Below, in pieces: positions 28,722 to 41,467 of a stretch of 64,000 nucleotides of DNA; within the stretch, counting starts at the first letter, position 1, and each line of letters opens with the position of its first letter. Position numbers and translations under genes: made by a program. The notes under the pieces are model-generated. The model worked only from the letters and a program-made list of their open reading frames with translations. It was not told where the DNA came from and did not search any database. Source of the stretch: Bacillota bacterium (GTDB taxonomy: Bacteria; Bacillota; Dehalobacteriia; UBA4068); contig JAILCQ010000029.1 of assembly GCA_024679955.1 (NCBI GenBank), positions 1 through 64,000 on the forward strand, written 5' to 3'.

Positions 28722-28810
28722 GGAGACGTATCGAAGTGGTCATAACGAGCCTGACTCGAAATCAGGTAGGCCGCAAGGTCTCGTGGGTTCGAATCCCACC
28801 GTCTCCGCCA
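28722..28810 (+). tRNA. tRNA-Ser(CGA) with encoded CCA
   Basis: The acceptor arms GGAGACG and CGTCTCC pair fully, with discriminator G at 28807 and CCA at 28808-28810. The anticodon stem CCTGA/TCAGG holds the loop CTCGAAA, anticodon CGA, reading UCG. The T arm GTGGG-TTCGAAT-CCCAC is canonical, and a long variable arm is present as expected for serine. A foreign island begins right behind it. Confidence 0.95.
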
Positions 28811-28968: not shown

Positions 28969-29068
28969 GTTCGTTGGATTTATGGGCAGTTCGTTGGAGT
29001 ATTGAGTAGTTCGTTGGATTATTGTCTGGTTCGTTGGAGTTATGGGTAGTTCGTTGGATTATTGTTTC
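28969..29068. repeat. Five tandem 20-bp repeats (GTTCGTTGGA core)
   Basis: Copies start at 28969, 28989, 29009, 29029 and 29049 with an exact 20-nt period. GTTCGTTGGA is invariant. The following bases alternate between T (copies 1, 3, 5) and G (copies 2, 4), and each copy ends with a variable TATGG/ATTG block. The last copy contains the stop codon of the GIY-YIG gene, so the array forms the 3' end of the restriction operon transcript. Confidence 0.9.
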
Positions 29069-29919
29069 GCCTCCGCAGCTTCAATCTCTTTCAACGATTT
29101 GCCCTCAGCGTTTTTCCAGTTTGCCGGCCCACTCACACTGTAGCCTGTAATAAAATCAGCTGCAGCTGATGAGCTTGAGAAAAGAATATCTTCTACGGTT
29201 ATGAAATCCTTAACCTTTTCTGAAGCCAGCAGTTTTTCTCTTCTGGCAACGGAGTTCTTGTTCAGTGACTTGACAGATGTCTTTGGATTTACAGTAGCAC
29301 CAGCAAAAACTACAAAACCTTCTGTAGTGATGATTCCTTTAGCCCTAGTGTTACCCATGCTTAAGTATAGGACATCTTGCTCCTCGGTTCCGGGGACGGT
29401 TGGCTGCACTGTTGGCTCGAGAACCTTATATCCGAGCGCATTGATGAGGACCTTGATATTATCGATAAATTCTTCCATTGCAGCGACTTGGGATTCTTTA
29501 ATGACAGTCTTTCCATATGTGTTTTTAGTGAGAACCTTATACCTTTTACTGTCTCGAGCGAGAACAACCAACCGATCTTCCAAATACCGGATTAATGTTT
29601 TATTCAGATCCCGGCCGGTAAAGATCACGGCTGTTGTCCAGTAATACTTTTCTTTATCCGCAGAGAAATCACGTAGGTGTTGAATAAGCCTGTCCTTTAC
29701 TGTTTCAGATTCCCCAATATATACTGCGTCGGATTCATCTTCATCCTTGCAAAAAAGGAAGTATACACCAGGTCCTTTCACATCATCACGGTCACAGTCA
29801 GCAACCTCAATGCGGGGGATTTTTATTGCTTTGCCATTCCAGTTTGAAAGCTCAGCAGTAATTAGGCTGTCTGCCGTTCCATTTGCCAAGAATAATTCAA
29901 TTGATCTTCCGTATGCCAT
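29059..29919 (-). CDS. GIY-YIG nuclease family protein with DUF4357
   Basis: A 286-residue protein. The GIY-YIG nuclease core is visible as GVYFLF at about 51 and AVYIGES at about 66, followed by the conserved Arg/His helix (VKDRLIQHLRDF) and a later Glu (YLEDRLV). The C-terminal 80 residues contain the FITGYSVSGPANWKN segment of DUF4357. Such proteins often sit at the end of type I restriction operons. The ATG at 29919 is preferred over 29928 because GGGAGG lies 9 nt upstream; it then starts just after the hsdR stop. It may add nuclease activity to the defence operon. Confidence 0.88.
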   Translation of the reverse strand: MAYGRSIELFLANGTADSLITAELSNWNGKAIKIPRIEVADCDRDDVKGPGVYFLFCKDEDESDAVYIGESETVKDRLIQHLRDFSADKEKYYWTTAVIFTGRDLNKTLIRYLEDRLVVLARDSKRYKVLTKNTYGKTVIKESQVAAMEEFIDNIKVLINALGYKVLEPTVQPTVPGTEEQDVLYLSMGNTRAKGIITTEGFVVFAGATVNPKTSVKSLNKNSVARREKLLASEKVKDFITVEDILFSSSSAAADFITGYSVSGPANWKNAEGKSLKEIEAAEAKQ

Positions 29920-29920
29920 T

Positions 29921-32900
29921 TCAAACATCCTCCCGGCTTACAGAGCCAATATCATCTAGTACGCCATCCTCTGAATGAGGCATTACATAAGGTTTCCCCT
30001 CAGGGTTGTATGTCAGGTTAAATACCAAGTCAGATAGCCACTTCTTGAAAGACGGATTGTCCTGAAACTGTTTGAACAGCTCCATATTGTCCGCCATGAT
30101 AGAGAAGATGACCTGCTGCAGAGCACGCTCGCTTTCGGTACGCGCTTCCTGAGCATCAGAGTTCCTCATGGCATTCTGATATTTCTTATCCTTGGATACC
30201 ATTTCGGGAATACGAAGGATTTGCTGCTGTACGTTATCAGCGTCGTTCCAGTTGATATTTCCGAACATGTCGTTGAAGTCCATGATGATCTTAGAAAGCA
30301 GATCCATCTCTGGCTCAACAATATGACCTATCTTTCCAGCGGGTACAGGTGCAATTTCAGCGTCGGAATCCTCAAGTTTAATGGAGATAGCTTCCTGTGC
30401 TTCGTTCCGATAACTGCTTAAATCTATCGTTTGGAGGATGCCTTCGGAAAGATCGTCGTCTCGCGGCGATGGAAGCTTAGGAATCAGCAAGTTCAGAAAG
30501 ATCGAGAGCTTTTCCCAGTCGACATTTCCGTAAGGGAGGATTGCACCAAGGAAACCATATGTACGCACAAAAGACTTAGCGGCGCTCTTGAATTTAATCT
30601 GATCGTCCAGCTCAAGCTGTTTATATACAGCTGTGCATGCATCCAAAATCGGATCAAGGCGGTCACGTTCTGCACCACTCAGGAAAAGGTCCACCAGCTT
30701 TTCAACATCGCTTTCGTCATAGACCTGATACTCTTCCATGATAGTAATCAAGTCGTACAGCTTATTAGGATCGGTCTCCCCGGAAAGAATAGTTGTTCTG
30801 TAGAACTTAGAGAACGCCTCCTCAATCACAGAGGTCTTGTTGGCAAAGTCCAAAACATATACTTCATCCTTGCCAGGATACGCTCTGTTCAAGCGAGAAA
30901 GGGTTTGCACCGCACCAATATCATAGAGCGGCTTATCCACATACATTGTCTGCAGAAGCGGCTCGTCGAAACCGGTCTGGAACATGTCAGCAACGATAAG
31001 TATCCTATACGGATCTTTCTTGAACTCCTTCGGAATCTTGGCGTCCGGGAATCCGTTCATGGCAGCCGATGTCAATGCCGGTTCCTGACCGTTATACTTG
31101 TGCTCACCGGAAAAAGCCACGATGGTCTTATAAGGACTATGCCTGTCAGCGAGGCACTTATTGATTGCATAATAGTATTCGATACACCTTGGAATACTGG
31201 CGGTGACTACCATTGCACGAGCTTTGCCGCCGACCTTTTTCTTGGCAATAACCTGCTCGTGGAAGTGATCCACCATCATTGCAGCTTTTTTTGCGATAAC
31301 ATCCGGATTGCCCTCGACAAAGGCACGCAGCTTCTTCTGCGCACGCTTCTTGTCAAACATCGGGTCGTCCTCGACTGTTTTCATGAGTTTATACCAGCTG
31401 TCGATGGTCGTATAATTTCGCAGCACATCGAGGATAAAGCCTTCCTGAATAGCCTGCTTCATCGTATAGACATGGAACGGACGATGCTTGATTTCGCCGT
31501 CCTCCTCATAGGCAACACCGAACATCTCCTCAGTCTTATTCTTCGGAGTGGCGGTGAAAGCAAAGTAGCTGGCGGAGGGGACGAGTTTGCGTCCTTCCAT
31601 CATGGCATTGATCTTGTCCTCATTATCAGCCTCATCATCTGTAGCGAGCCCGGAAAGCGCCAGATTCATATTTGCGGAGTTACGTCCGCTCTGGCCGGAG
31701 TGCGCCTCATCGATGATGATGGCAAACTTGTTATTCTTATGTTCTTGCCCAATCTCAGAGATGATGTACGGAAACTTTTCAATCGTAGATATAATGATGC
31801 GCTTGCCATCCTGTATGGCTTTACGCAGGTCTCCGGAATGCTCAGCCCATGTTACGGTGTTCTTGACCTGCATGAACTGCTTGATCGTATTGCGGATCTG
31901 CTTATCCAGAATACGACGGTCAGTGACGACAAGGACAGAATCGATCATTGGGTGGCCGTCTTTTTCAAGTCCGATCAACTGATGAGCCAGCCAAGCGATA
32001 GAGTTTGACTTGCCGCTTCCGGCGCTGTGCTGAATCAGGTACCGCTTGCCGACACCGTTTTCTTTCACATCAGCTAGCAGCTTTTCTACGCAGTCGAGCT
32101 GATGATAACGCGGCCAAATCTGCTTGATGGACTTTTTGCTGGTGTCCTCGTCCACTTCTTCAATGACCTGAGCGTAATTTTCTATAATGCGTGACAGTTT
32201 TCTCTTTGTAAGGATATCCTTCCAGAGATAGTCGGTCATGAGGCCGTCCGGATTCGGCGGATTGCCTGCACCATCGTTATATCCTTTGTTGAACGGCAGG
32301 AACCAGCTGTCCTTCCCAGCGAGCTTTGTGCAAAACTGGATCGTAGCATCGTCCACGGCAAAATGAACCATGCAGCGCTTGAAAGAGAATAGGAGATCGT
32401 GGAAATCACGGTCTTCCTTGTACTGGCGGACAGCATTTTCCGTGTTCTGCTTTGTCAGCTGGTTCTTCAACTCCAGCGTGATGACGGGCAGGCCGTTGAT
32501 AAAGAGGCAGACATCCAGAGCCAGCTTTCCGGCATCCTGCGAGTAGCGCAGCTGGCGGGTCACGCTGAAGATATTCCTCTCATACATAATTCTGGCCTGC
32601 TCATTATTTTCGGTCGGCGTCAGGAAGAACATGATGAGGTCTGCAGGGTATACCTTCACACCATTGCGCAGCACGTCAATGATACCGCGCCTGGCAATCT
32701 CTCCGGACAGGCGGTTCAGGAACTGGCGTTTCTTCGTATCCGAAGTAAACACGCCTAGTTTACCCATTTCCTTCGGCTGCGTGTCCTGCAGGAACCGAAA
32801 CAGGCGCATTTCGTCGACAGCATACTCTTTGTTATAGTCGGCGTTTGTTCCTTCCTCGTATCCGTTTTGCGCAACAAGCCATTTTACAATTAAGGATTCA

Positions 32901-32932
32901 AGGCCGCTTTCCTTTGTGTTGGTAAAAGCCAT
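29921..32932 (-). CDS. hsdR: Type I restriction enzyme R subunit (HsdR)
   Basis: A 1003-residue motor/nuclease subunit of normal length. The N-terminal nuclease has D140 with the ELK of motif III at about 154-156. The helicase part has Walker A HSAGSGKS near 302, DEAH at 408-411, and FTATPKNKTEEMFG, followed by the second RecA domain (RILIVADMFQTGFDEP, TLSRLNRAYPGK). It translocates DNA and cuts it when sites are unmodified. The start lies just after hsdS, with AGGAGG inside hsdS. No frameshift is seen, so the system appears intact. Confidence 0.95.
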   Translation of the reverse strand: MAFTNTKESGLESLIVKWLVAQNGYEEGTNADYNKEYAVDEMRLFRFLQDTQPKEMGKLGVFTSDTKKRQFLNRLSGEIARRGIIDVLRNGVKVYPADLIMFFLTPTENNEQARIMYERNIFSVTRQLRYSQDAGKLALDVCLFINGLPVITLELKNQLTKQNTENAVRQYKEDRDFHDLLFSFKRCMVHFAVDDATIQFCTKLAGKDSWFLPFNKGYNDGAGNPPNPDGLMTDYLWKDILTKRKLSRIIENYAQVIEEVDEDTSKKSIKQIWPRYHQLDCVEKLLADVKENGVGKRYLIQHSAGSGKSNSIAWLAHQLIGLEKDGHPMIDSVLVVTDRRILDKQIRNTIKQFMQVKNTVTWAEHSGDLRKAIQDGKRIIISTIEKFPYIISEIGQEHKNNKFAIIIDEAHSGQSGRNSANMNLALSGLATDDEADNEDKINAMMEGRKLVPSASYFAFTATPKNKTEEMFGVAYEEDGEIKHRPFHVYTMKQAIQEGFILDVLRNYTTIDSWYKLMKTVEDDPMFDKKRAQKKLRAFVEGNPDVIAKKAAMMVDHFHEQVIAKKKVGGKARAMVVTASIPRCIEYYYAINKCLADRHSPYKTIVAFSGEHKYNGQEPALTSAAMNGFPDAKIPKEFKKDPYRILIVADMFQTGFDEPLLQTMYVDKPLYDIGAVQTLSRLNRAYPGKDEVYVLDFANKTSVIEEAFSKFYRTTILSGETDPNKLYDLITIMEEYQVYDESDVEKLVDLFLSGAERDRLDPILDACTAVYKQLELDDQIKFKSAAKSFVRTYGFLGAILPYGNVDWEKLSIFLNLLIPKLPSPRDDDLSEGILQTIDLSSYRNEAQEAISIKLEDSDAEIAPVPAGKIGHIVEPEMDLLSKIIMDFNDMFGNINWNDADNVQQQILRIPEMVSKDKKYQNAMRNSDAQEARTESERALQQVIFSIMADNMELFKQFQDNPSFKKWLSDLVFNLTYNPEGKPYVMPHSEDGVLDDIGSVSREDV

Positions 32933-32934
32933 TG

Positions 32935-34284
32935 TTAATCCTCCTGTTCCTCTGCTTCATCGAGTTCTTCATCGTTTTCTATTTCTATATCTTCATCTAT
33001 GTGTTCAAAGTCAGGCACTTCGATTTCTCGCACATCGATATGCCCTGTGACCGCTTCCGCAATAATTCTCGAACGCAGCTCGTGTAATATATCAATATAA
33101 TCATTGATTGCGTCTATAGCTTCTTTTGTTTGCTGTTCTACATTCTCAATCTCTTTAACTATGGCATCCTGCTCTTCTTTTGGAGGATAAATGGTGTAAA
33201 CATCATAAAAGTTCTGATTGGAAAGGTTCTGTAAACCTACTGTCATTCCATTTGACCGGCCTGCGTAGACAGTCCTATATTCAGGTGTATGATACAACGC
33301 CTCATAATATTTAGAGTTTGCATCTCGCTTGGGCACAAAAACGCCATAATGGAATGTAACAATTCCACGATACTTTGAGGCAAAAAATACGCCTAAATGT
33401 GCTTTGAATCTATTAAGAACCAAATCATTAGGAAGCACAAGTTTCCAATTGTCATATGATGCAGTATGCAAAGAACGTTCCTTCATATTTTCGTATGGCA
33501 ACAGTCCGTCCTTCTGTGAAAGTGAAAGGACAAGCTCATTGCCCTCAAATTTACGACTATTCTCTTTGAACAGCCTTCCATTTAAAAGGATTTGCCAATG
33601 TTCAGGAACTTTACCGATGTAATCAATTCCACTATCTTTAAAATGGCGCGTATCATCTAATCCTCTCTTTACGATTCGACTAATTCTGATTTCCCGTTGT
33701 TCCCTTAATAGCCTAACTTGTTGCTTTCTCGTATCAATCAAGGAGTTAATTTTTGATACTTGCCAATCCAAATAATGAGCTATTTTCTTCTGTTCCTCGA
33801 TTGAAGGAACAGGTGTTTTTAACGCACCAAAAGCGTCAAATGAAATCGTGTATCTTACGTTCTTTGAATACATTTTGTAATTCCGGTTTGAAAATACATA
33901 TTGAAACCAGCAATCTACATAATCTTCATCGATATATAATTCATTGCATTCTGCGACATCATATGCGGACGTAATCATTCCATTATATTTTGATATGCCG
34001 GAGAAGACTGCAGAAACATCAAGATCAAAAAGGCAAAAAACCATATCGTGTGGTCTTACCTCTTGGTATCCACTATAAGAAGCAGGGACCTTTCCTCTTC
34101 TATCTTCTATACTTTTCTCCTTGATGCCTCCGGTTGTCAGTGACAACAGTTGGTAATTCTTGTACGCTTCACCGACCTTGATCTGCCTTTTCTTAAACAA
34201 AACCTTGTTGGGTATAAGTTTCCACGAGGATGGAATCTCGCCAATCCAAGGAATTTCACTGTCTTTGTATAGTTCATACCTCAT
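32935..34284 (-). CDS. hsdS: Type I restriction enzyme specificity subunit (HsdS)
   Basis: A 449-residue specificity subunit with two target-recognition domains. Each begins with an Ile-Gly-x-Val/Ile-Pro-x-x-Trp motif (WIGEIPSSW near residue 13 and YIGKVPEHW near 215) and ends in a conserved helix (LDWQVSKINSLIDTRKQQ, and a second dimerisation helix). The C-terminal tail is unusually acidic, with a run of Glu and Asp. The ATG at 34284 overlaps the end of hsdM by 11 nt and has AAGGAGGG inside hsdM. DNA target cannot be predicted from sequence alone. Confidence 0.93.
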   Translation of the reverse strand: MRYELYKDSEIPWIGEIPSSWKLIPNKVLFKKRQIKVGEAYKNYQLLSLTTGGIKEKSIEDRRGKVPASYSGYQEVRPHDMVFCLFDLDVSAVFSGISKYNGMITSAYDVAECNELYIDEDYVDCWFQYVFSNRNYKMYSKNVRYTISFDAFGALKTPVPSIEEQKKIAHYLDWQVSKINSLIDTRKQQVRLLREQREIRISRIVKRGLDDTRHFKDSGIDYIGKVPEHWQILLNGRLFKENSRKFEGNELVLSLSQKDGLLPYENMKERSLHTASYDNWKLVLPNDLVLNRFKAHLGVFFASKYRGIVTFHYGVFVPKRDANSKYYEALYHTPEYRTVYAGRSNGMTVGLQNLSNQNFYDVYTIYPPKEEQDAIVKEIENVEQQTKEAIDAINDYIDILHELRSRIIAEAVTGHIDVREIEVPDFEHIDEDIEIENDEELDEAEEQED

Positions 34285-36289
34285 GGAGCAATCCCTCCTT
34301 GATATCTGCGAGCTTTCCATCTGCTTTGATTTCCAAAGTGATTAAATCATCTACAATATCTTGAATTGATCGACTTGAGAACGCTTTATAGAAGTACCTC
34401 GAAAAAGAAACTTCATATCCCGTTTGTGTTTTACTGTCGTCCACAAATGCGTCATCGTTATACGGCAACACTTCATTTCTCATAAATCCTTGTATTCCAT
34501 CAACATAATTGAATGGAACTATTTCTGTCTCTCTGAGTTCAGAATCCGTTTCACCTACAACGGGCTGAGCACTGGGATCTTTCTCAGTGATAAATGGGCG
34601 GATTTTTTTAAGTGTAGCAGCTTTAAGTTTTGTCTTTTTCGCAAAAGCCGACCAATCATCTGTGAACGCATCACCCGAAACTGATGCCAATGCGCTCTTT
34701 ACTGCTTCAAATTCGTCAGCTTTCTTAAATGTGTCCGCAGGAATAGGTCGTTCTGGATATACACGCAGTCTAAGAGGGCGTTCAACCGTTATAGACCAAA
34801 ACCCAAAATCAGAATTGTCAAAAATGCGGCTAACCTTGCTTTGTTCCATGTTCATAAAAATTCTAAGAATTTCCTTACGTATTTCAGCTGTTAACTCGCA
34901 ATTCTTCTTTCCCATGTTCTTGCGTAGGAGGGCCTTCATTTCCGTTGCGTCAATAAGCTGTATTTTACCCCTGCGACGTTCTTCTTTTTTGTTTGAAAGA
35001 ATCCATATATATGTGCCAATTCCCGTGTTGTAAAACATGTTTTCAGTAAGCGCAATTATGGCTTCAACATAGTCATTCTCTATCAAATATTTACGTGCGT
35101 TGCTTTCTCCGCTACCTGCATCCCCTGTAAAGAGCGACGAGCCATTATGCACCTCTGCAATACGGCTGCCAAGCTCGGTGTCTTTCTTCATCTTTGCCAC
35201 ATTGTTTAGCAAGAACAGGAGCTGGCCATCACTGGTACGCGGAATCATCGGCATGACATCCCCACCTTCAAGATAGGTGTTGAAGCGGGTATCGAGGATT
35301 TCCTTCTTGCCTCCCATTTTCTCGGCATCAGTTTTCCAGCTCTTTCCGTATGGAGGATTTGAGAGCATGAAGTCAAACTGACGAGATGCGTGCTGATCGT
35401 CAGAAAGTGTGGAGCCATACATAATGTGCTCGGCCTCTTCTCCATCGCCCTTGAGTAGCATATCCGCCGTGCAGATCGCATAAGTTTCCGGATTGATTTC
35501 CTGCCCGAACAGATGGATGGCGACTTCTTTGCCACGCCTCTTAGCCAGCGTCAAAAGTCTGTCCTGAGCGACGGTGAGCATGCCTCCCGTACCGCAGGCT
35601 CCGTCATAGCAGGAATAGGAAGCATCCTTGATCTTGTCGGCAATAGGCATGAAAACAAGGTCGGCCATAAGCTCGACAACATCACGAGGCGTCCAGTGTT
35701 CACCGGCTTCCTCGTTATTCTCCTCGTTGAACTTGCGGATCAGCTCCTCAAAGATGGTACCCATACCGTGATTATCGAGGCCGGGATGCTTGAGGATGGT
35801 CTTCGCAGCGTCTTTATAAATCGGATTCGGGCTCAGGTTAATATCAGAAGATGTAAACTTCTCAATGACCGCACCAAGAATATCCGCATCCACCATAGTA
35901 TCGATCTGGTTACGGAATTTGAACTTATCCAGAATTACCTGAACATTTGGCGAGAAGCCATCAAGATATGCGATAAAGTCCGCCTTCAAGGTCTGCGCCT
36001 TTGCGCGGCTTGTCAGATCTTTCAGAAGGAAGGGAGACGCATTACAAAACGCCTGTCCCGCTGCATTGCACAGCGCAGGCCACTGGTTATCGATTTTTGC
36101 AGCATCAAGCTGTTTCTTCATTGCCAGCACTGCCGGTTTTGTTTCTTCTAGCATAGCGTCCAGACGGCGGATAACCGTCATCGGAAGAATGACGTCACGA
36201 TACTTGCCGCGCACATATACATCGCGCAGGCAATCATCTGCGATCCCCCAAATAAAACTGACTATCTGATTATGCACCTGATTATCCAT
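34274..36289 (-). CDS. hsdM: Type I restriction enzyme methylase (HsdM)
   Basis: A 671-residue N6-adenine methyltransferase. The helical N-terminal domain (HsdM_N) spans about residues 5-155. The SAM motif DGACGTGG is at 229-236 and the catalytic NPPY at 311-314. The C-terminal third is longer than in compact HsdM proteins and may contact HsdS. GGAGGAATC precedes the ATG. The gap of 81 nt to the radical SAM gene upstream has no terminator with a T run, so read-through from the TcmP operon is possible. Confidence 0.95.
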   Translation of the reverse strand: MDNQVHNQIVSFIWGIADDCLRDVYVRGKYRDVILPMTVIRRLDAMLEETKPAVLAMKKQLDAAKIDNQWPALCNAAGQAFCNASPFLLKDLTSRAKAQTLKADFIAYLDGFSPNVQVILDKFKFRNQIDTMVDADILGAVIEKFTSSDINLSPNPIYKDAAKTILKHPGLDNHGMGTIFEELIRKFNEENNEEAGEHWTPRDVVELMADLVFMPIADKIKDASYSCYDGACGTGGMLTVAQDRLLTLAKRRGKEVAIHLFGQEINPETYAICTADMLLKGDGEEAEHIMYGSTLSDDQHASRQFDFMLSNPPYGKSWKTDAEKMGGKKEILDTRFNTYLEGGDVMPMIPRTSDGQLLFLLNNVAKMKKDTELGSRIAEVHNGSSLFTGDAGSGESNARKYLIENDYVEAIIALTENMFYNTGIGTYIWILSNKKEERRRGKIQLIDATEMKALLRKNMGKKNCELTAEIRKEILRIFMNMEQSKVSRIFDNSDFGFWSITVERPLRLRVYPERPIPADTFKKADEFEAVKSALASVSGDAFTDDWSAFAKKTKLKAATLKKIRPFITEKDPSAQPVVGETDSELRETEIVPFNYVDGIQGFMRNEVLPYNDDAFVDDSKTQTGYEVSFSRYFYKAFSSRSIQDIVDDLITLEIKADGKLADIKEGLLHEV

Positions 36290-36370: not shown

Positions 36371-37144
36371 TCAGTTCGTTATGGTTTTCTCTTTTATGTG
36401 GTAAGCGATGTTCCGACTATCGCAAAACTGTATAACCTCTGCTGCTTTTTCATTATAAAAATGCTTGTGGTCCGGGTAGGCAGATACAGTAGGGTTATAA
36501 TTTGTCCTGCCAAAAATTATTTTATCCACAAAGGAAACTTTCCTGAGAAGCTTTTGAAGATCTTGCTCTACGAGATTGGGTGTGGGGTATGGTTCAATAC
36601 TAACCCAGGTCTTACAGCCTTTCTCGTGAAGTTCCCGTAAGGCATGCAACCTCTTAGGATATGGCGAGGAGTGAGGTTCCATTTTCTTTCGGAACTCTGC
36701 GTCAAATGAGACCAGTGTAATGCCATACTCGTTATCAGATGATAGCTCGGCGAGCTCAGTTGGAAGGACGCCCTTTGTTAATACAGTGCACTTGATTCCT
36801 GCCTCATTTAGTTTCCGAATAGCAGCAATGGACATGTCGGAAATCTCGTCATACCCATACATAAAAGGATCTGTGGTGAAACACAACTGAACCGAGGTGA
36901 TTCTATCTTTTAGCTTTGGTATTTCCTTATCAAGCAGTTCAAGAGTGTTAGATACTAAATAGGGTTTTTTCCACTCCTCATAGTTTTTTACCACACCGAA
37001 TCGTTTCTTTTGTAGATAGGCATAGCAGGGATAATTACAGCCATGTGCACAGCCAAGTACATGATTCATAGTGTAATCACCATACTCAACCCCGGTAACA
37101 TAGAGCATGGAATTACGCTCTATATAACCAGCTACTTTTTTCAT
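36371..37144 (-). CDS. Radical SAM protein (SPL-like, three-Cys motif), partner of TcmP
   Basis: A 257-residue radical SAM-like protein related to the spore photoproduct lyase/COG1533 group. The cluster-binding cysteines are C32, C36 and C40 (GCAHGCNYPCYAY), a CX3CX3C pattern with one residue more than the canonical CX3CX2C. Other supports are a barrel strand with CFTTDPF, LTKGVLPTEL and WVSIEPYPTP. Its ATG overlaps the stop of the TcmP-like gene (ATGA). Proteins with such a three-Cys motif are known to occur beside TcmP; the substrate is unknown. A nucleic acid substrate is a guess. Confidence 0.8.
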   Translation of the reverse strand: MKKVAGYIERNSMLYVTGVEYGDYTMNHVLGCAHGCNYPCYAYLQKKRFGVVKNYEEWKKPYLVSNTLELLDKEIPKLKDRITSVQLCFTTDPFMYGYDEISDMSIAAIRKLNEAGIKCTVLTKGVLPTELAELSSDNEYGITLVSFDAEFRKKMEPHSSPYPKRLHALRELHEKGCKTWVSIEPYPTPNLVEQDLQKLLRKVSFVDKIIFGRTNYNPTVSAYPDHKHFYNEKAAEVIQFCDSRNIAYHIKEKTITN

Positions 37145-38283
37145 GACTTACAACCCCTATCGAGAAATGTAATTGTGCTTTTCTGACCATTTCTCCCTCT
37201 GGCTTCTGAAGCACCATAGTAAGTGGTTAATATCTGTTTAATCTCTTTTCTGAAGCCCTCAGATGGGAAAATTGGATGTTCATCAAGGACAGCCCATATT
37301 TCATCAAGAGATACTGTCTGCCCTGCAAACGCTTTTTGAAGGTATTCAGCAATATCTTTCACATAATAGCAATATTCATCGGTTGAGGTTGCCGGAACTC
37401 CTGTTCCGCTAAAATCCATCACATATTGATTTTCGCGGCCATGTGTATTTTTAGTAGAGGATTTTCCTCCAAAGACTTGCCATGCAGTTTTCTTGTATAG
37501 CTTAAATCCCTGGATATGTCCGGTACAATGGATAAGGTTATACACTATTGCATTGTTGACATTGAAAAAAGGAAATGCCGCGACGTAATAGTCATTTTGT
37601 TTCCTTCGATGAAGCATGTAAATAATCTGCTCAATACGCTCTTCGAGAGCCTTTTTATCACTACCAAGTGGGATAAGGTCTTCAATATGCGAAAGATACG
37701 TTCCTTCATATTTCCCGATAGCAGCGTCAGTTTTGGCTTGTTTCACAGCCCGGATAGAATCAGAAACCATATGATTGATAATCACTTCACCCCAGTTATT
37801 CAAGAAAGGGAGAATTGCTGGCCAGTCAATTCGTGCATCATATGGATCATATACAAGCAAATAATGATAGCCAAGTGAGGAATCCAACCTGCTTCCAATT
37901 CTTTTTAGGAGGTCGTTAGCGTCTTCGGTACGTGTAATAATCTTAAAGTTTGTTGTGTCGCCAGGAAGCAAGCCTTTTAGATGGGCAATTTTTCTCTCAT
38001 CTCGATCGTTAAAGTATAAAAGAAATTTTTTAGGGTAATACTGGCCTGCTGCCTTTCTTAGTATTTTTGCAACACGGATGGGAGTACCAAAAACCGGATT
38101 ACCATCGTCGTCATAGTACTCTCCACTATTACTCATGCAATCGATAAAGATAAGGCATTTACAGCTTTTATTGAGCGCGAGAATTTGAGACCAAGCTTCA
38201 ACATATTTTTCAATCAGGTCAAACTTCTTTATCGTATGTGGGCTTGCATTGCTGATGATTTCATCGTTGTTTGCACTAGACAC
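37141..38283 (-). CDS. tcmP: Three-Cys-motif partner protein (TcmP) family
   Basis: A 380-residue protein matching the TcmP pattern: SPHTIKKFDLIEKYVEAWSQIL at about 14-35, then a Rossmann-like strand CLIFIDCMSNSGEY followed by GTPIRVAKIL, LLYFNDRDERK, and LLVYDPYDARIDW at about 142-154, which resembles a methyltransferase motif IV. The C-terminal 80 residues look like a winged helix. A GTG at 38283 is the start, 2 nt after the HTH gene stop. No biochemical function is established for the family as far as I know. The tight coupling to a radical SAM gene suggests they act together. Confidence 0.75.
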   Translation of the reverse strand: MSSANNDEIISNASPHTIKKFDLIEKYVEAWSQILALNKSCKCLIFIDCMSNSGEYYDDDGNPVFGTPIRVAKILRKAAGQYYPKKFLLYFNDRDERKIAHLKGLLPGDTTNFKIITRTEDANDLLKRIGSRLDSSLGYHYLLVYDPYDARIDWPAILPFLNNWGEVIINHMVSDSIRAVKQAKTDAAIGKYEGTYLSHIEDLIPLGSDKKALEERIEQIIYMLHRRKQNDYYVAAFPFFNVNNAIVYNLIHCTGHIQGFKLYKKTAWQVFGGKSSTKNTHGRENQYVMDFSGTGVPATSTDEYCYYVKDIAEYLQKAFAGQTVSLDEIWAVLDEHPIFPSEGFRKEIKQILTTYYGASEARGRNGQKSTITFLDRGCKS

Positions 38284-38285
38284 AG

Positions 38286-38513
38286 TTACAGATCGCCTTC
38301 TTCCACATTTTCAGCGGGAATGAAATCCATTATATCGCCAATGTTACAATCGAGCGCTTTACAAACCTTGATGAGAACTTCCATACTCACATTTTCATTC
38401 TTAGAAAGTTTCGTTACGGAAGCCCAGCTGATACCCGCTTGTTTTTGAAGGTCGGTTTTCTTCATATCCTTATCTATCAGCAGCTTCCAAAGCTTCTTAT
38501 AACTAATTTCCAT
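38286..38513 (-). CDS. Small HTH (XRE/Cro-CI-type) regulator
   Basis: A 75-residue protein that is nearly all helix-turn-helix: KTDLQKQAGISWASVTKLSKNENVSMEVLIKVCKALDCNIGDIMDF. It heads the TcmP-radical SAM operon. Two copies of AGAATTCTTC in its own promoter are likely binding sites, so autorepression is probable. AGGTGACG precedes the ATG. The gene order, small HTH first, is common in regulated defence operons. Confidence 0.88.
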   Translation of the reverse strand: MEISYKKLWKLLIDKDMKKTDLQKQAGISWASVTKLSKNENVSMEVLIKVCKALDCNIGDIMDFIPAENVEEGDL

Positions 38514-38545
38514 TTTGCGTCACCTCGAAGATGATATATATATTG

Positions 38546-38574
38546 ATTATATACAGAATTCTTCTTTTAAGCAA
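38546..38574 (-). promoter_or_regulatory. Promoter of the HTH-TcmP-radical SAM operon
   Basis: On the minus strand TATAAT lies at 38546-38551 and a TTGCTT-like -35 at about 38567-38572, with 15 to 16 nt between. One operator-like repeat sits between them. Confidence 0.5.
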
Positions 38575-38585
38575 TAGAATTCTTC
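38555..38585. promoter_or_regulatory. Paired operator-like repeats (AGAATTCTTC)
   Basis: Identical decamers with palindromic core GAATTC lie at 38555-38564 and 38576-38585, centres 21 nt apart or two helical turns. They flank the -35 of the HTH gene and are the best candidates for its binding sites. The divergent promoter is about 30 nt away, so both operons may be controlled. Confidence 0.55.
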
Positions 38586-38612
38586 ACAAATACGAGAATT
38601 TCCACTGTGTTA

Positions 38613-38641
38613 TTGTCAATAATCAGATGTGGTGGTATAAT
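38613..38641 (+). promoter_or_regulatory. Promoter of the plus-strand island operon
   Basis: TTGTCA (38613-38618) and TATAAT (38636-38641) are 17 nt apart with a TGG extension, 34 nt upstream of the first gene. Confidence 0.7.
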
Positions 38642-38674
38642 TACAAAAACACTTTGTGAGAGGAAGATCTTTAG

Positions 38675-39340
38675 ATGCCTGGCTACCGAAACGAACTGGA
38701 GCGGTTTATCTATGAAAAGTGCTATGATCATCTATTTACAGGGATTAACGCTTATCTAGCCGTTCATCCACAATGCGCAAAACGGGCAAATTCTCGTGTT
38801 TTTGTACCGACGAAGGCAGAACTTTTGGATATGATCCTTGAAGGTATTCCTTCTGTCTGGATAGACGATGACACGATTAAGTTTCAAGCTGTTGTCAGCG
38901 GTTCAGTTTATTTAGAAGAGGACCAGGAATACTATGGGACGAATAGCTGTGAAACTAATGTTTATGTTTTCCGTGTCGGTGAAGCGCACCAGAAGGATGA
39001 TATTGTTAGGTTTATCGACTTTTCCGTTGATGGTTATACAAGAACGAACCGTAAGAAAGCAAGCGTCAATTTAAGGGACACCGATCATGCGAAAGAACGT
39101 TATGCAGAACTTGTAGATTTGGTACGTTTCGGAAAGGGCAAGTTACATTACTATACCGAAAAGGAATATTACGAGGGCACCATTGACCCCGACAACGGTG
39201 CTGACTGGAATCAAACAGCGCCCATTGATACAAGACCGACACTGGAGGACTTCAAAAAGACGGTCAGCGATTATTTGGCATGGGAGGTTTCAAACCTTCT
39301 GAAGAGCCAAGATAAGGAGGACGACCGCCTGGGAAAATGA
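38675..39340 (+). CDS. Probable chimeric remnant: unknown N-terminus joined to C-terminus of an N6 DNA methylase
   Basis: A 221-residue protein without an obvious catalytic motif. Residues 1 to about 95 (RFIYEKCYDHLFTGINAYL, PSVWIDDDTIKFQAVVSGS) resemble the start of a mobile-element protein I cannot name. From about 97 (YVFRVGEAHQKDDIVRFIDFS, then IDTRPTLEDFKKTVSDYLAWEVSNLLK) it resembles the C-terminal end of BcgI/type IIG-like N6-adenine methylases, which normally precede an S gene as here. The NPPY and nuclease parts are absent. I infer a deletion that joined two genes; it may instead be an intact accessory protein. It overlaps the S gene in ATGA. Confidence 0.55.
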   Translation: MPGYRNELERFIYEKCYDHLFTGINAYLAVHPQCAKRANSRVFVPTKAELLDMILEGIPSVWIDDDTIKFQAVVSGSVYLEEDQEYYGTNSCETNVYVFRVGEAHQKDDIVRFIDFSVDGYTRTNRKKASVNLRDTDHAKERYAELVDLVRFGKGKLHYYTEKEYYEGTIDPDNGADWNQTAPIDTRPTLEDFKKTVSDYLAWEVSNLLKSQDKEDDRLGK

Positions 39341-40464
39341 CAGCCTCACTTAACGAAAAGCTGAGGACTGTTAAGTGGGGCAAATATAAACTCGGCTCAT
39401 TATTTGAGATAGATAACACGCTTAGTTTTAATGCAGATGTCTTGGTACCAGGAGAAAAGTACGATTATGTTACTAGAACTTCACTGAATCAAGGGATTTT
39501 GCAATCTACCGGTTTTGTTAACAAAGAAAATATTAATCCTGCTGGGACTTGGAGTTTAGGCTTACTGCAAATGGATTTCTTTTATAGAAGAAAACCTTGG
39601 TATGCTGGTCAGTTTATGCGCAAAATAACGCCCAAAATAACAATTCCAAAAGGGGCAATCTTATTCGTTTCAACTGTACTAAACATGCAGAAACCTATTC
39701 TTCTTTCTGTTCTCGTACGCAATGTTGATTCGACCTTTAAGAATATAGAGGTTTATTTACCTGTTTCGTCCGAAGGAAACATAGATTTTAATTTTATGGA
39801 ATCATTTGTAGCGGAGCTGGAGGCGGAGCGTATAGCGGAGCTAGAGGCGGAGCGTATAGCGGAGCAGTCCGCTTACTTAACAGTAAGCGGACTGGACAAT
39901 TATGAATTGTCCAAAGAGGAAGAACGAGCGATAACGGATTATAGTTCTTACGTTTGGAAATCCTTTAACCTTAAGGACTTGTACGGAAAATCGACTCGAG
40001 GGAAGCGTCTGAAAAGCGAAGATCGCATTCCGGGTACTCTCCCGTTTGTAACTGCAGGTGAAGCCGAAGAAGGCGTTTCTGCTTTTATAGGAAATGATGT
40101 TGAAGTATTTGAAAAGAACACGACCACTATTGATATGTTCGGTTCCGCCAAATACCGCAATTACCGTTACGGCGGTGATGACCATGTGGCGATTGTACAT
40201 ACTGAGAATGTTCCGATGAAGGCATCGATATTCGTTACCTCGGCATGCCACAAGGCCGCTCATACCGGCAAATTCGATTACGGTCATAATTTCTATGCAA
40301 AAGATGCCGATGCTCTTGATATCATGCTTCCTTCAAAGGACGGCAAGCCGGATTATCAGGCTATGGCACTGCTGATTTCGGCAATTCAGAAGCTGGTCAT
40401 AAAAGACGTTGTCCGCTATGCAGATCGGAAGGTTGCTGGAACAAAATATGTCATCGGCAAATGA
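39337..40464 (+). CDS. Restriction specificity subunit (S), orphan, with repeat linker
   Basis: A 375-residue protein with two target-recognition-like halves. Each starts alike: KWGKYKLGSLFEI near residue 13 and VWKSFNLKDLYGK near 208. The second half has GTLPFVTAGEAEEGVSAFIG and TIDMFGSAKYRNYRYGGDDHVAIV, typical of S subunits of BcgI-type and related systems. Between the halves lie two copies of AELEAERI (159-166, 167-174), recalling the repeat spacer of EcoR124 S. No intact cognate methylase gene lies next to it, so it is probably an orphan, unless it borrows HsdM from the nearby system. Confidence 0.8.
   Translation: MTASLNEKLRTVKWGKYKLGSLFEIDNTLSFNADVLVPGEKYDYVTRTSLNQGILQSTGFVNKENINPAGTWSLGLLQMDFFYRRKPWYAGQFMRKITPKITIPKGAILFVSTVLNMQKPILLSVLVRNVDSTFKNIEVYLPVSSEGNIDFNFMESFVAELEAERIAELEAERIAEQSAYLTVSGLDNYELSKEEERAITDYSSYVWKSFNLKDLYGKSTRGKRLKSEDRIPGTLPFVTAGEAEEGVSAFIGNDVEVFEKNTTTIDMFGSAKYRNYRYGGDDHVAIVHTENVPMKASIFVTSACHKAAHTGKFDYGHNFYAKDADALDIMLPSKDGKPDYQAMALLISAIQKLVIKDVVRYADRKVAGTKYVIGK
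39811..39858 (+). repeat. 24-bp tandem repeat in the S-subunit linker
   Basis: Two 24-bp units at 39811-39834 and 39835-39858 differ at one base and are followed by a partial third. Each adds eight residues to the helix between the two recognition domains, without changing frame. Confidence 0.9.
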
Positions 40465-40534: not shown

Positions 40535-40594
40535 ATGAAAGGAAAAACTATGAAAGAAAAAACTATGAAAGAAAAAACTATGAAAGAAAAAACT
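40535..40594 (+). repeat. 15-bp tandem repeat with reiterated start codons
   Basis: Four near-identical 15-bp units (ATGAAAGAAAAAACT type) begin at 40535, 40550, 40565 and 40580. The first differs by an A-to-G change that creates AAAGGA. Each unit encodes Met-Lys-Glu-Lys-Thr. Confidence 0.9.
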
Positions 40595-41467
40595 ATTTCT
40601 TCATTGAGTCAATTGATCGATGCTATTGAAAAACTTAAAAGTTATTATCCATCTGGAATCATGCTAAACAATCCAGTTGCCAATACTTTTTTGTACAGAG
40701 GGTTAAGTGACGTTTCATATAAATTGATTCCCAGTGTATTTAGAAAAAAAGAAGACAATATTGACGGCCGTGTCGTAATAAACAATAAGTATCTTGCCTG
40801 GGCGAATGAGAAGTCATTATTGCTTTCATTTATACATGAAGCAAGTGGATTATTAAGCATTTCAACAAATGATTTACCCCGATGGGCAGAATATGCACAG
40901 CATTACGGTGTACCGACACGTTTTTTGGATTGGAGCAGCAATCCATTAGTTGCTCTATACTTCGCCTGTAGAGATAGAACAGAACAAGATGGTGCTATAT
41001 GGATGCTTCATGGAACAAACTATAAAAGGTTCCTTGCTAAAAACCTACAGATACCAAAAGAGAAGACTGTAAAAGAGATTTTATCCGATTTATTCAATGA
41101 CGATAAAGAAATTGATTATCCTGTTCTGTATACTCCATATTACGTAGATGCACGTATGAGTGCTCAAAAAAGCTATTTCCTCGTATGGGGTGCAAAAAAA
41201 GAACCTTTGGAAGATATGCTTCTAAATGATGAGTTGTTTATGGAGCTTCCAGAGGTTGATAATGGAATTCGTCTATATGGAGATGATCAGCAGAATAACA
41301 TCCTATTTAAATTCTTCATACATGCAGATAGCAAGCAACCCTTATTACACGAGCTTGATATGGTTGGAATCAATGAAAAAACCTTATTTCCAGGATTAGA
41401 CGGTATCGGAAGATATGTAGAAAGACAATATCGATTTGACTATAACGAAACGATCATCAGCATGTAA
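40550..41467 (+). CDS. FRG domain-containing protein
   Basis: A 305-residue protein with an FRG domain: FLYRGLSD at about 47 and AQHYGVPTRFLDWSSNPLVALYFAC at about 116-140. The domain is common in defence and mobile-element proteins but its activity is not established. The N-terminus is a repeat of Lys-Glu-Lys-Thr-Met. I chose the second ATG (40550) because AAAGGA from the first repeat unit lies 7 nt upstream; the first ATG (40535) has no ribosome binding site. It is the last gene of the plus-strand island series, about 85 nt after the S gene. Confidence 0.85.
   Translation: MKEKTMKEKTMKEKTISSLSQLIDAIEKLKSYYPSGIMLNNPVANTFLYRGLSDVSYKLIPSVFRKKEDNIDGRVVINNKYLAWANEKSLLLSFIHEASGLLSISTNDLPRWAEYAQHYGVPTRFLDWSSNPLVALYFACRDRTEQDGAIWMLHGTNYKRFLAKNLQIPKEKTVKEILSDLFNDDKEIDYPVLYTPYYVDARMSAQKSYFLVWGAKKEPLEDMLLNDELFMELPEVDNGIRLYGDDQQNNILFKFFIHADSKQPLLHELDMVGINEKTLFPGLDGIGRYVERQYRFDYNETIISM

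Follow-up and report, generated by a model that had tools for sequence, protein, structure and literature searches.

TcmP proteins are already known as defence candidates. In PADLOC, the candidate systems PDC-M30 and PDC-M41 pair a TcmP (the A component) with a DUF5131 protein of the 'phage Gp37/Gp68 family' (the B component), and we take this DUF5131 partner, which carries a CX6CX2C motif, to be the 'three-Cys' protein behind the name of TcmP. Of 100 strains of P. aeruginosa, 32 were predicted to have PDC-M30 and 68.8% of these 32 were phage resistant, which is a correlation only (PMC10855318). PADLOC also reports PDC-M30 loci in the laboratory strain P. aeruginosa PA14 (PMC11878078). A TcmP gene beside the Hna defence gene is listed for S. 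meliloti (PMC12445080), but PDCs do not always hold up, since two others failed to protect their native host (PMC12409345). In a survey of the literature on TcmP systems, no publication with a phage phenotype was found for any of them. A second survey, on TcmP, DUF5131 and CX3CX3C radical SAM proteins, found no function, and the sole mention of CX3CX3C for a radical SAM protein concerned NifB. The NifB motif is believed to be CX3CX2C.

The window, i.e., the whole stretch of 64,000 nucleotides that was analysed, contains a TcmP gene in a different setting (Table 1). It is the middle gene of a cassette which starts with a small helix-turn-helix (HTH) regulator and ends with a radical SAM protein. 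The GTG start of the TcmP gene is located 2 bp past the stop codon of the HTH gene on the minus strand, and the radical SAM and TcmP genes overlap by 4 bp. The compact three-gene unit proposed in the preliminary description was confirmed by these ORF coordinates and by the Pfam and TIGR04474 matches. The genes are considered to be real because homologues in several phyla retain the same order. Beyond a gap of 81 bp, the radical SAM gene is followed by hsdM, hsdS and hsdR and then by the PDC-S14 gene, all on the minus strand. The three subunits of a type I restriction-modification system are all present according to Pfam and PADLOC, and the position directly upstream of hsdMSR, also claimed beforehand, was likewise found to be correct. 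A minus-strand scan of the gap between the radical SAM gene and hsdM found no intrinsic terminator. A weak hairpin spanning the radical SAM stop codon was considered as a terminator and rejected, being equivalent to shuffled sequences (z = 0.15). The statement that no terminator precedes hsdM holds insofar as none is above chance, but co-transcription across the 81 bp is not thereby proven.

Table 1. Features of the cassette and of its surroundings in the window.
Feature	Position	Strand	Evidence
GIY-YIG/DUF4357 protein, overlaps the end of hsdR	29059..29928	-	PADLOC PDC-S14, E 1.6e-95
HsdR, type I restriction subunit	29921..32932	-	PF04313, PF18766, PF22679
HsdS, type I specificity subunit	32935..34320	-	PF01420; PADLOC Specificity_I, E 1e-74
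HsdM, type I DNA methyltransferase subunit	34274..36289	-	PF02384, PF12161; PADLOC MTase_I, E 2e-241
Radical SAM protein, 257 aa, CX3CX3C	36371..37144	-	PF04055, 53.7 bits (cut-off 29.5); motif in 36/36
TcmP-like protein, 380 aa, GTG start	37141..38283	-	TIGR04474, 97.8 bits (curated cut-off 53)
HTH regulator, Cro/C1-type (HTH_26), 75 aa, ATG start, first cassette gene	38286..38513	-	PF13443, E 1.3e-23
Divergent intergenic region, promoter and operator-like blocks	38514..38674	.	Alignment of 14 loci
Divergent gene, M78-peptidase/HTH-type N-terminus and type IIG-type C-terminus	38675..39340	+	
Type II (BcgI-like) specificity subunit, overlaps the preceding gene by four bases	39337..40464	+	PF01420; PADLOC Specificity_II
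FRG-domain protein	40535..41467	+	PADLOC PDC-S15

The co-occurrence of TcmP and three-Cys proteins, to which the preliminary description referred, does exist in the form of PDC-M30 and PDC-M41, but the CX3CX3C protein of the window belongs to a family that is distinct and distant from DUF5131. The window TcmP matched the A components (PDC-M30A with E = 1.1e-14 and 52 bits, PDC-M41A with E = 3.3e-13 and 48 bits). The radical SAM protein remained below threshold for the B component (E = 0.0064 for PDC-M41B, and 16.1 bits for DUF5131, whose cut-off is 28.9), and a remote profile similarity was detected between the two families (hhalign, 70%, E = 4e-5). Twenty-nine TcmPs scored over the cut-off in 398 genomes of one phylum. 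Fifteen of them had DUF5131 as a neighbour, nine had the radical SAM family of the window, none had both, and five had neither, at least two of these five being truncated or located at contig ends. Like PDC-M30 and PDC-M41, the cassette associates a TcmP with a three-cysteine radical-SAM-like protein in a mobile and defence context. It differs from them by the CX3CX3C motif, by its own HTH gene and conserved promoter, and by a partner that the B models miss at E = 0.001. We assign the cassette to a second lineage of the known TcmP candidate (PDC-M30/PDC-M41-type). The PADLOC models that were applied miss it as a complete system because the partner is not DUF5131.

The radical SAM protein is a member of the superfamily by profile and fold, with a non-canonical cysteine spacing. 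CX3CX2C is the usual, although not universal, spacing in radical SAM proteins. Here the motif reads C32-x3-C36-x3-C40, with the consensus C-x-H-G-C-x-[YF]-P-C-Y, and the CX3CX3C spacing, as first noticed in the window, was kept in all 36 full-length homologues. No further cysteine was invariant among the homologues and, with only three such residues, nothing points to an auxiliary cluster. Across the main clade the protein is 57–82% identical and its gene is almost always paired with TcmP; the alignment has 55 invariant positions. Homologues of approximately 50% identity with no adjoining TcmP were seen at loci L103 and L104 and at the viral locus L135. The structural model (pLDDT 92.4) had spore photoproduct lyase (SPL) as its best PDB match (Foldseek E = 3.7e-7, TM 0.68 by query), and viperin ranked 17 in the list of fold matches. 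Neither the SPL nor the viperin family models of Pfam and NCBIfam matched the protein, and a PDB sequence search with single sequences and profiles found nothing. The fold similarity leaves the substrate of the enzyme unfixed.

The AlphaFold2 model of TcmP (pLDDT 83) resembled class I methyltransferases in Foldseek (E values of 3e-6 to 1e-3, with modest TM of 0.3–0.5), and the Rossmann-type core initially attributed to this protein is supported by the fold. Histamine methyltransferase came first, RlmJ, MnmM, TrmR, KsgA and METTL6 were among the best PDB matches, and a comparison with viral models again returned generic methyltransferases. A motif-I-like DCMSNSG (residues 48–54) and a DP (146–147) were observed, in which D48, G54, D146 and P147 are invariant. 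Motif I is DCFAGxG in canonical TcmPs, as compared to DCMxNSG in the subtype of the window. Since this subtype does not have the FAGxG form, SAM binding by TcmP is uncertain, and the subtype may be unable to bind SAM. The secondary structure of the model shows a winged-helix topology in the last 75 residues, and a canonical TcmP gave a weak, sub-threshold winged-helix Pfam match. A C-terminal winged helix is probably present in TcmP at about positions 303–375 of the model.

A marked difference in conservation between TcmP and the other two proteins was seen among the relatives, which were drawn from the 398 genomes sampled within the phylum and from GTDB contigs, viral contigs and phage records; plasmid and phage databases contained few close relatives. 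The HTH homologues are 65–84% identical to the window HTH across 16 related loci. TcmP is 15–64% identical to that of the window. The loci L076 and L108 illustrate this situation, with 75–77% identity to the window for the HTH protein, 70–74% for the radical SAM protein and only 16–19% for TcmP. The type of TcmP changes approximately seven times along the radical-SAM tree, and at least two to three of these changes are forced by well-supported branches. Some loci possess two TcmPs for one radical SAM protein, the second being of the canonical PDC-M41A type (E = 8e-91), and broken TcmPs mark degenerate copies at L090 and L095. The simplest reading of these comparisons would be a constant regulator and radical enzyme associated with an exchangeable TcmP. 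An in-frame fusion of the radical SAM gene and an IsrB-type RRXRR protein, accompanied by a HEARO RNA, was observed at L102 (8202–10193, plus strand, 590 aa), and another copy of IsrB was present at L141 (8845–10470, plus strand) of the same genome. The fusion was rejected as proof of DNA targeting, being most likely an insertion chimera, because the genome has an identical IsrB ORF elsewhere, following a truncated TcmP, and a HEARO RNA is located upstream.

The region upstream of the HTH gene was conserved among 14 loci despite different TcmPs and different downstream genes. The alignment revealed blocks of the form AAATTC..GCG...AGA, a CTCTTG-like −35 element and an extended −10 element TATAAT, and the HTH protein presumably autoregulates the promoter of the cassette, as the preliminary description had guessed. 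On the other side of this region, the N-terminal 130 aa of the divergent gene product resemble the M78-peptidase/HTH proteins which, in prophages, are encoded upstream of the cassette in divergent orientation. Such M78 (ImmA/CapP-like) peptidase proteins, of 620–660 aa, are encoded by the divergent upstream gene at L074, L077–L081, L083 and L085–L087, the copy of L083 being shorter with a separate HTH gene and that of L087 being truncated. It is possible that they are regulators of the cassette HTH or of the prophage. In the window, the fused divergent gene and the BcgI-like specificity subunit next to it (38675–40464) resemble a partly deleted type II system.

We propose that the cassette acts against phages as a mobile module under its own regulation, and that it represents a second TcmP/three-Cys lineage in which DUF5131 is replaced by an SPL-like CX3CX3C radical SAM enzyme; to this whole proposal we give an even chance. 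In this model, the small HTH protein would bind the divergent promoter and hold the operon at a low level. TcmP, with its methyltransferase-like fold and probable C-terminal winged helix, would recognise a nucleic acid, most likely invading DNA or that of a replicating element, and the common radical SAM subunit would make a radical-based base change on the target chosen by TcmP. In some loci the neighbouring restriction enzymes may hit the same DNA, the module being independent of them. A physical partnership of TcmP and the radical SAM protein is presumed, whereas the nucleic-acid target and the radical chemistry are speculative. Modification of a nucleic acid is put forward tentatively as the mechanism, and with some doubt. 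The narrower version, in which interchangeable TcmP specificity subunits direct one conserved CX3CX3C radical SAM catalytic subunit to alter nucleic acid, in the manner of restriction enzymes, is rather unlikely to hold in full.

The target could also be RNA. TcmP and the radical SAM protein would then modify tRNA or rRNA upon infection, and either stop translation or mark the host RNA. Radical SAM enzymes which modify RNA are common, and RlmJ, MnmM, TrmR, KsgA and METTL6 were among the best matches of the TcmP model. These RNA methyltransferase matches are, however, generic to the fold, the nearest radical SAM fold, spore photoproduct lyase, is that of a DNA enzyme, and the genes around the cassette are for the modification and restriction of DNA. 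We consider an RNA-directed, translation-targeting system to be unlikely.

In 19 of the 37 informative loci (six of 16 in the genome-derived subset), the gene directly downstream of the cassette was for restriction or modification or matched another PADLOC model. The other 18 had no recognised defence gene in this position. The downstream genes were of at least six unrelated kinds, with gaps often of 3–17 bp. Some were type III mod/res genes, accompanied by SNF2 helicases or AbiU-like genes, and three were type I hsdM genes that are only distantly related to one another. Others were GmrSD type IV together with a type II nuclease, a HindIII-like nuclease plus a DUF1156 methyltransferase, HEC-07, and type II methyltransferases. 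As a control, ten genes adjoining other radical SAM genes of the SPL/PA0069-like type in the same genomes were inspected; none was a restriction gene, and one had a generic ATPase match. A Fisher test gave p = 0.003 with 0/10, or 0.03 with 1/10, values to be taken with caution as several of the loci are related prophages. Many cassettes were alone in prophages, in ICEs, or beside a phage terminase on a phage contig, and these standalone copies indicate that no particular restriction system is required. Among the other settings, the cassette of L097 lies among metabolic genes, and leuC/leuD adjoin the cassette or its radical SAM gene in two unrelated loci (L007:5743-11859 and L098:3-3144). The association with HsdMSR in the window is non-specific, as the cassette is also found ahead of type II, type III and type IV systems or ahead of none.

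These neighbourhoods bear on another explanation, an accessory role in the control or alleviation of restriction, where the HTH protein would be controller-like and TcmP and the radical SAM protein would modulate the restriction enzymes or the host DNA. The size of the HTH protein is that of controller proteins, the promoter is conserved, and in several loci only 3–17 bp separate the cassette from an hsdM or mod gene directly after it. The restriction types are nevertheless mutually unrelated, the gap in the window is 81 bp, and many loci, several prophage and ICE positions and the phage contig among them, have no adjoining restriction gene, so that an accessory role appears quite unlikely.

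The window cassette itself lies in a low-GC region, with 37–50% GC across 29–42 kb as compared to mostly 52–60% on either flank. This region of about 29–42 kb is a defence island, which begins just past a tRNA-Ser gene (28722–28810) and also contains the BcgI-like specificity gene and the FRG-domain gene (PDC-S15). Repeats of the type 'GTTCGTTGGA(T/G)TATTG' are visible at about 28970–29065, between the tRNA-Ser gene and the first island gene. In an empty-site comparison with the sole congener, the tRNA-Ser side of the congener stopped at a contig edge. Carriage on mobile elements might simply reflect selfish or housekeeping cargo which gathers in islands and has no role in defence. The frequent presence on prophages and ICEs and the degenerate copies at L090 and L095 would fit such a cargo. 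Against it stand the strong conservation of the radical SAM protein (the 55 invariant positions), the enrichment beside restriction genes over the control and the fact that PADLOC independently lists the DUF5131 lineage among its defence candidates, and we regard it as just as improbable as the accessory role. A small antiviral molecule of the viperin type, tailored by TcmP as a methyltransferase, is very unlikely: viperin is an antiviral radical SAM enzyme and is present in the fold list, but no viperin or other nucleotide-pathway model matched, and the rapid divergence of TcmP beside a constant radical SAM protein better suits target recognition.

The preferred reading thus remains the anti-phage module. 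The idea of a defence system, already voiced in the preliminary description, is supported by context, i.e., by 19 of 37 loci against no clear case in ten controls and by the carriage on prophages and ICEs; it has to be qualified in that TcmP was already a PADLOC candidate and that the link to HsdMSR is non-specific. We conclude that the cassette is very probably a defence-associated variant of the TcmP systems, and a real anti-phage function seems somewhat more probable than its absence. If TcmP systems do protect against phages, they would be widespread, with 29 TcmPs in 398 genomes, and would provide a second radical-SAM route in immunity. The exchangeable TcmP opposed to the constant radical SAM protein offers a concrete and testable idea of which partner recognises and which one reacts. 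The interchangeable-specificity reading, if true, would imply a new DNA or RNA modification chemistry in immunity.

To our knowledge, viperins are the only established case of radical SAM chemistry in bacterial immunity. The cassette shares with prokaryotic viperins a radical SAM protein in an anti-phage context, but this protein has no sequence or family match to them and possesses a partner protein. The closest sequence models, PA0069, Rv2578c and rSAM_mob_pair, matched it with E values of 2e-13 to 2e-5, far under the curated cut-offs (e.g., 49.9 as compared to 360 bits). The predicted fold of the TcmP core resembles that of RlmJ and other class I methyltransferases, with a motif-I-like sequence and the DP motif at the expected places, and differs from them by the DCMxNSG form of its subtype, by the added C-terminal winged helix and by the fact that no Pfam family is recognised. 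Spore photoproduct lyase (SplB), the best fold match of the radical SAM protein, likewise has a single three-Cys radical SAM centre, and acts on DNA. In comparison, the protein of the cassette has an extra residue between the second and third cysteines, measures 257 aa instead of about 340 aa, shows 13% identity, does not match the SPL model and, in the main clade, is almost always paired with TcmP.
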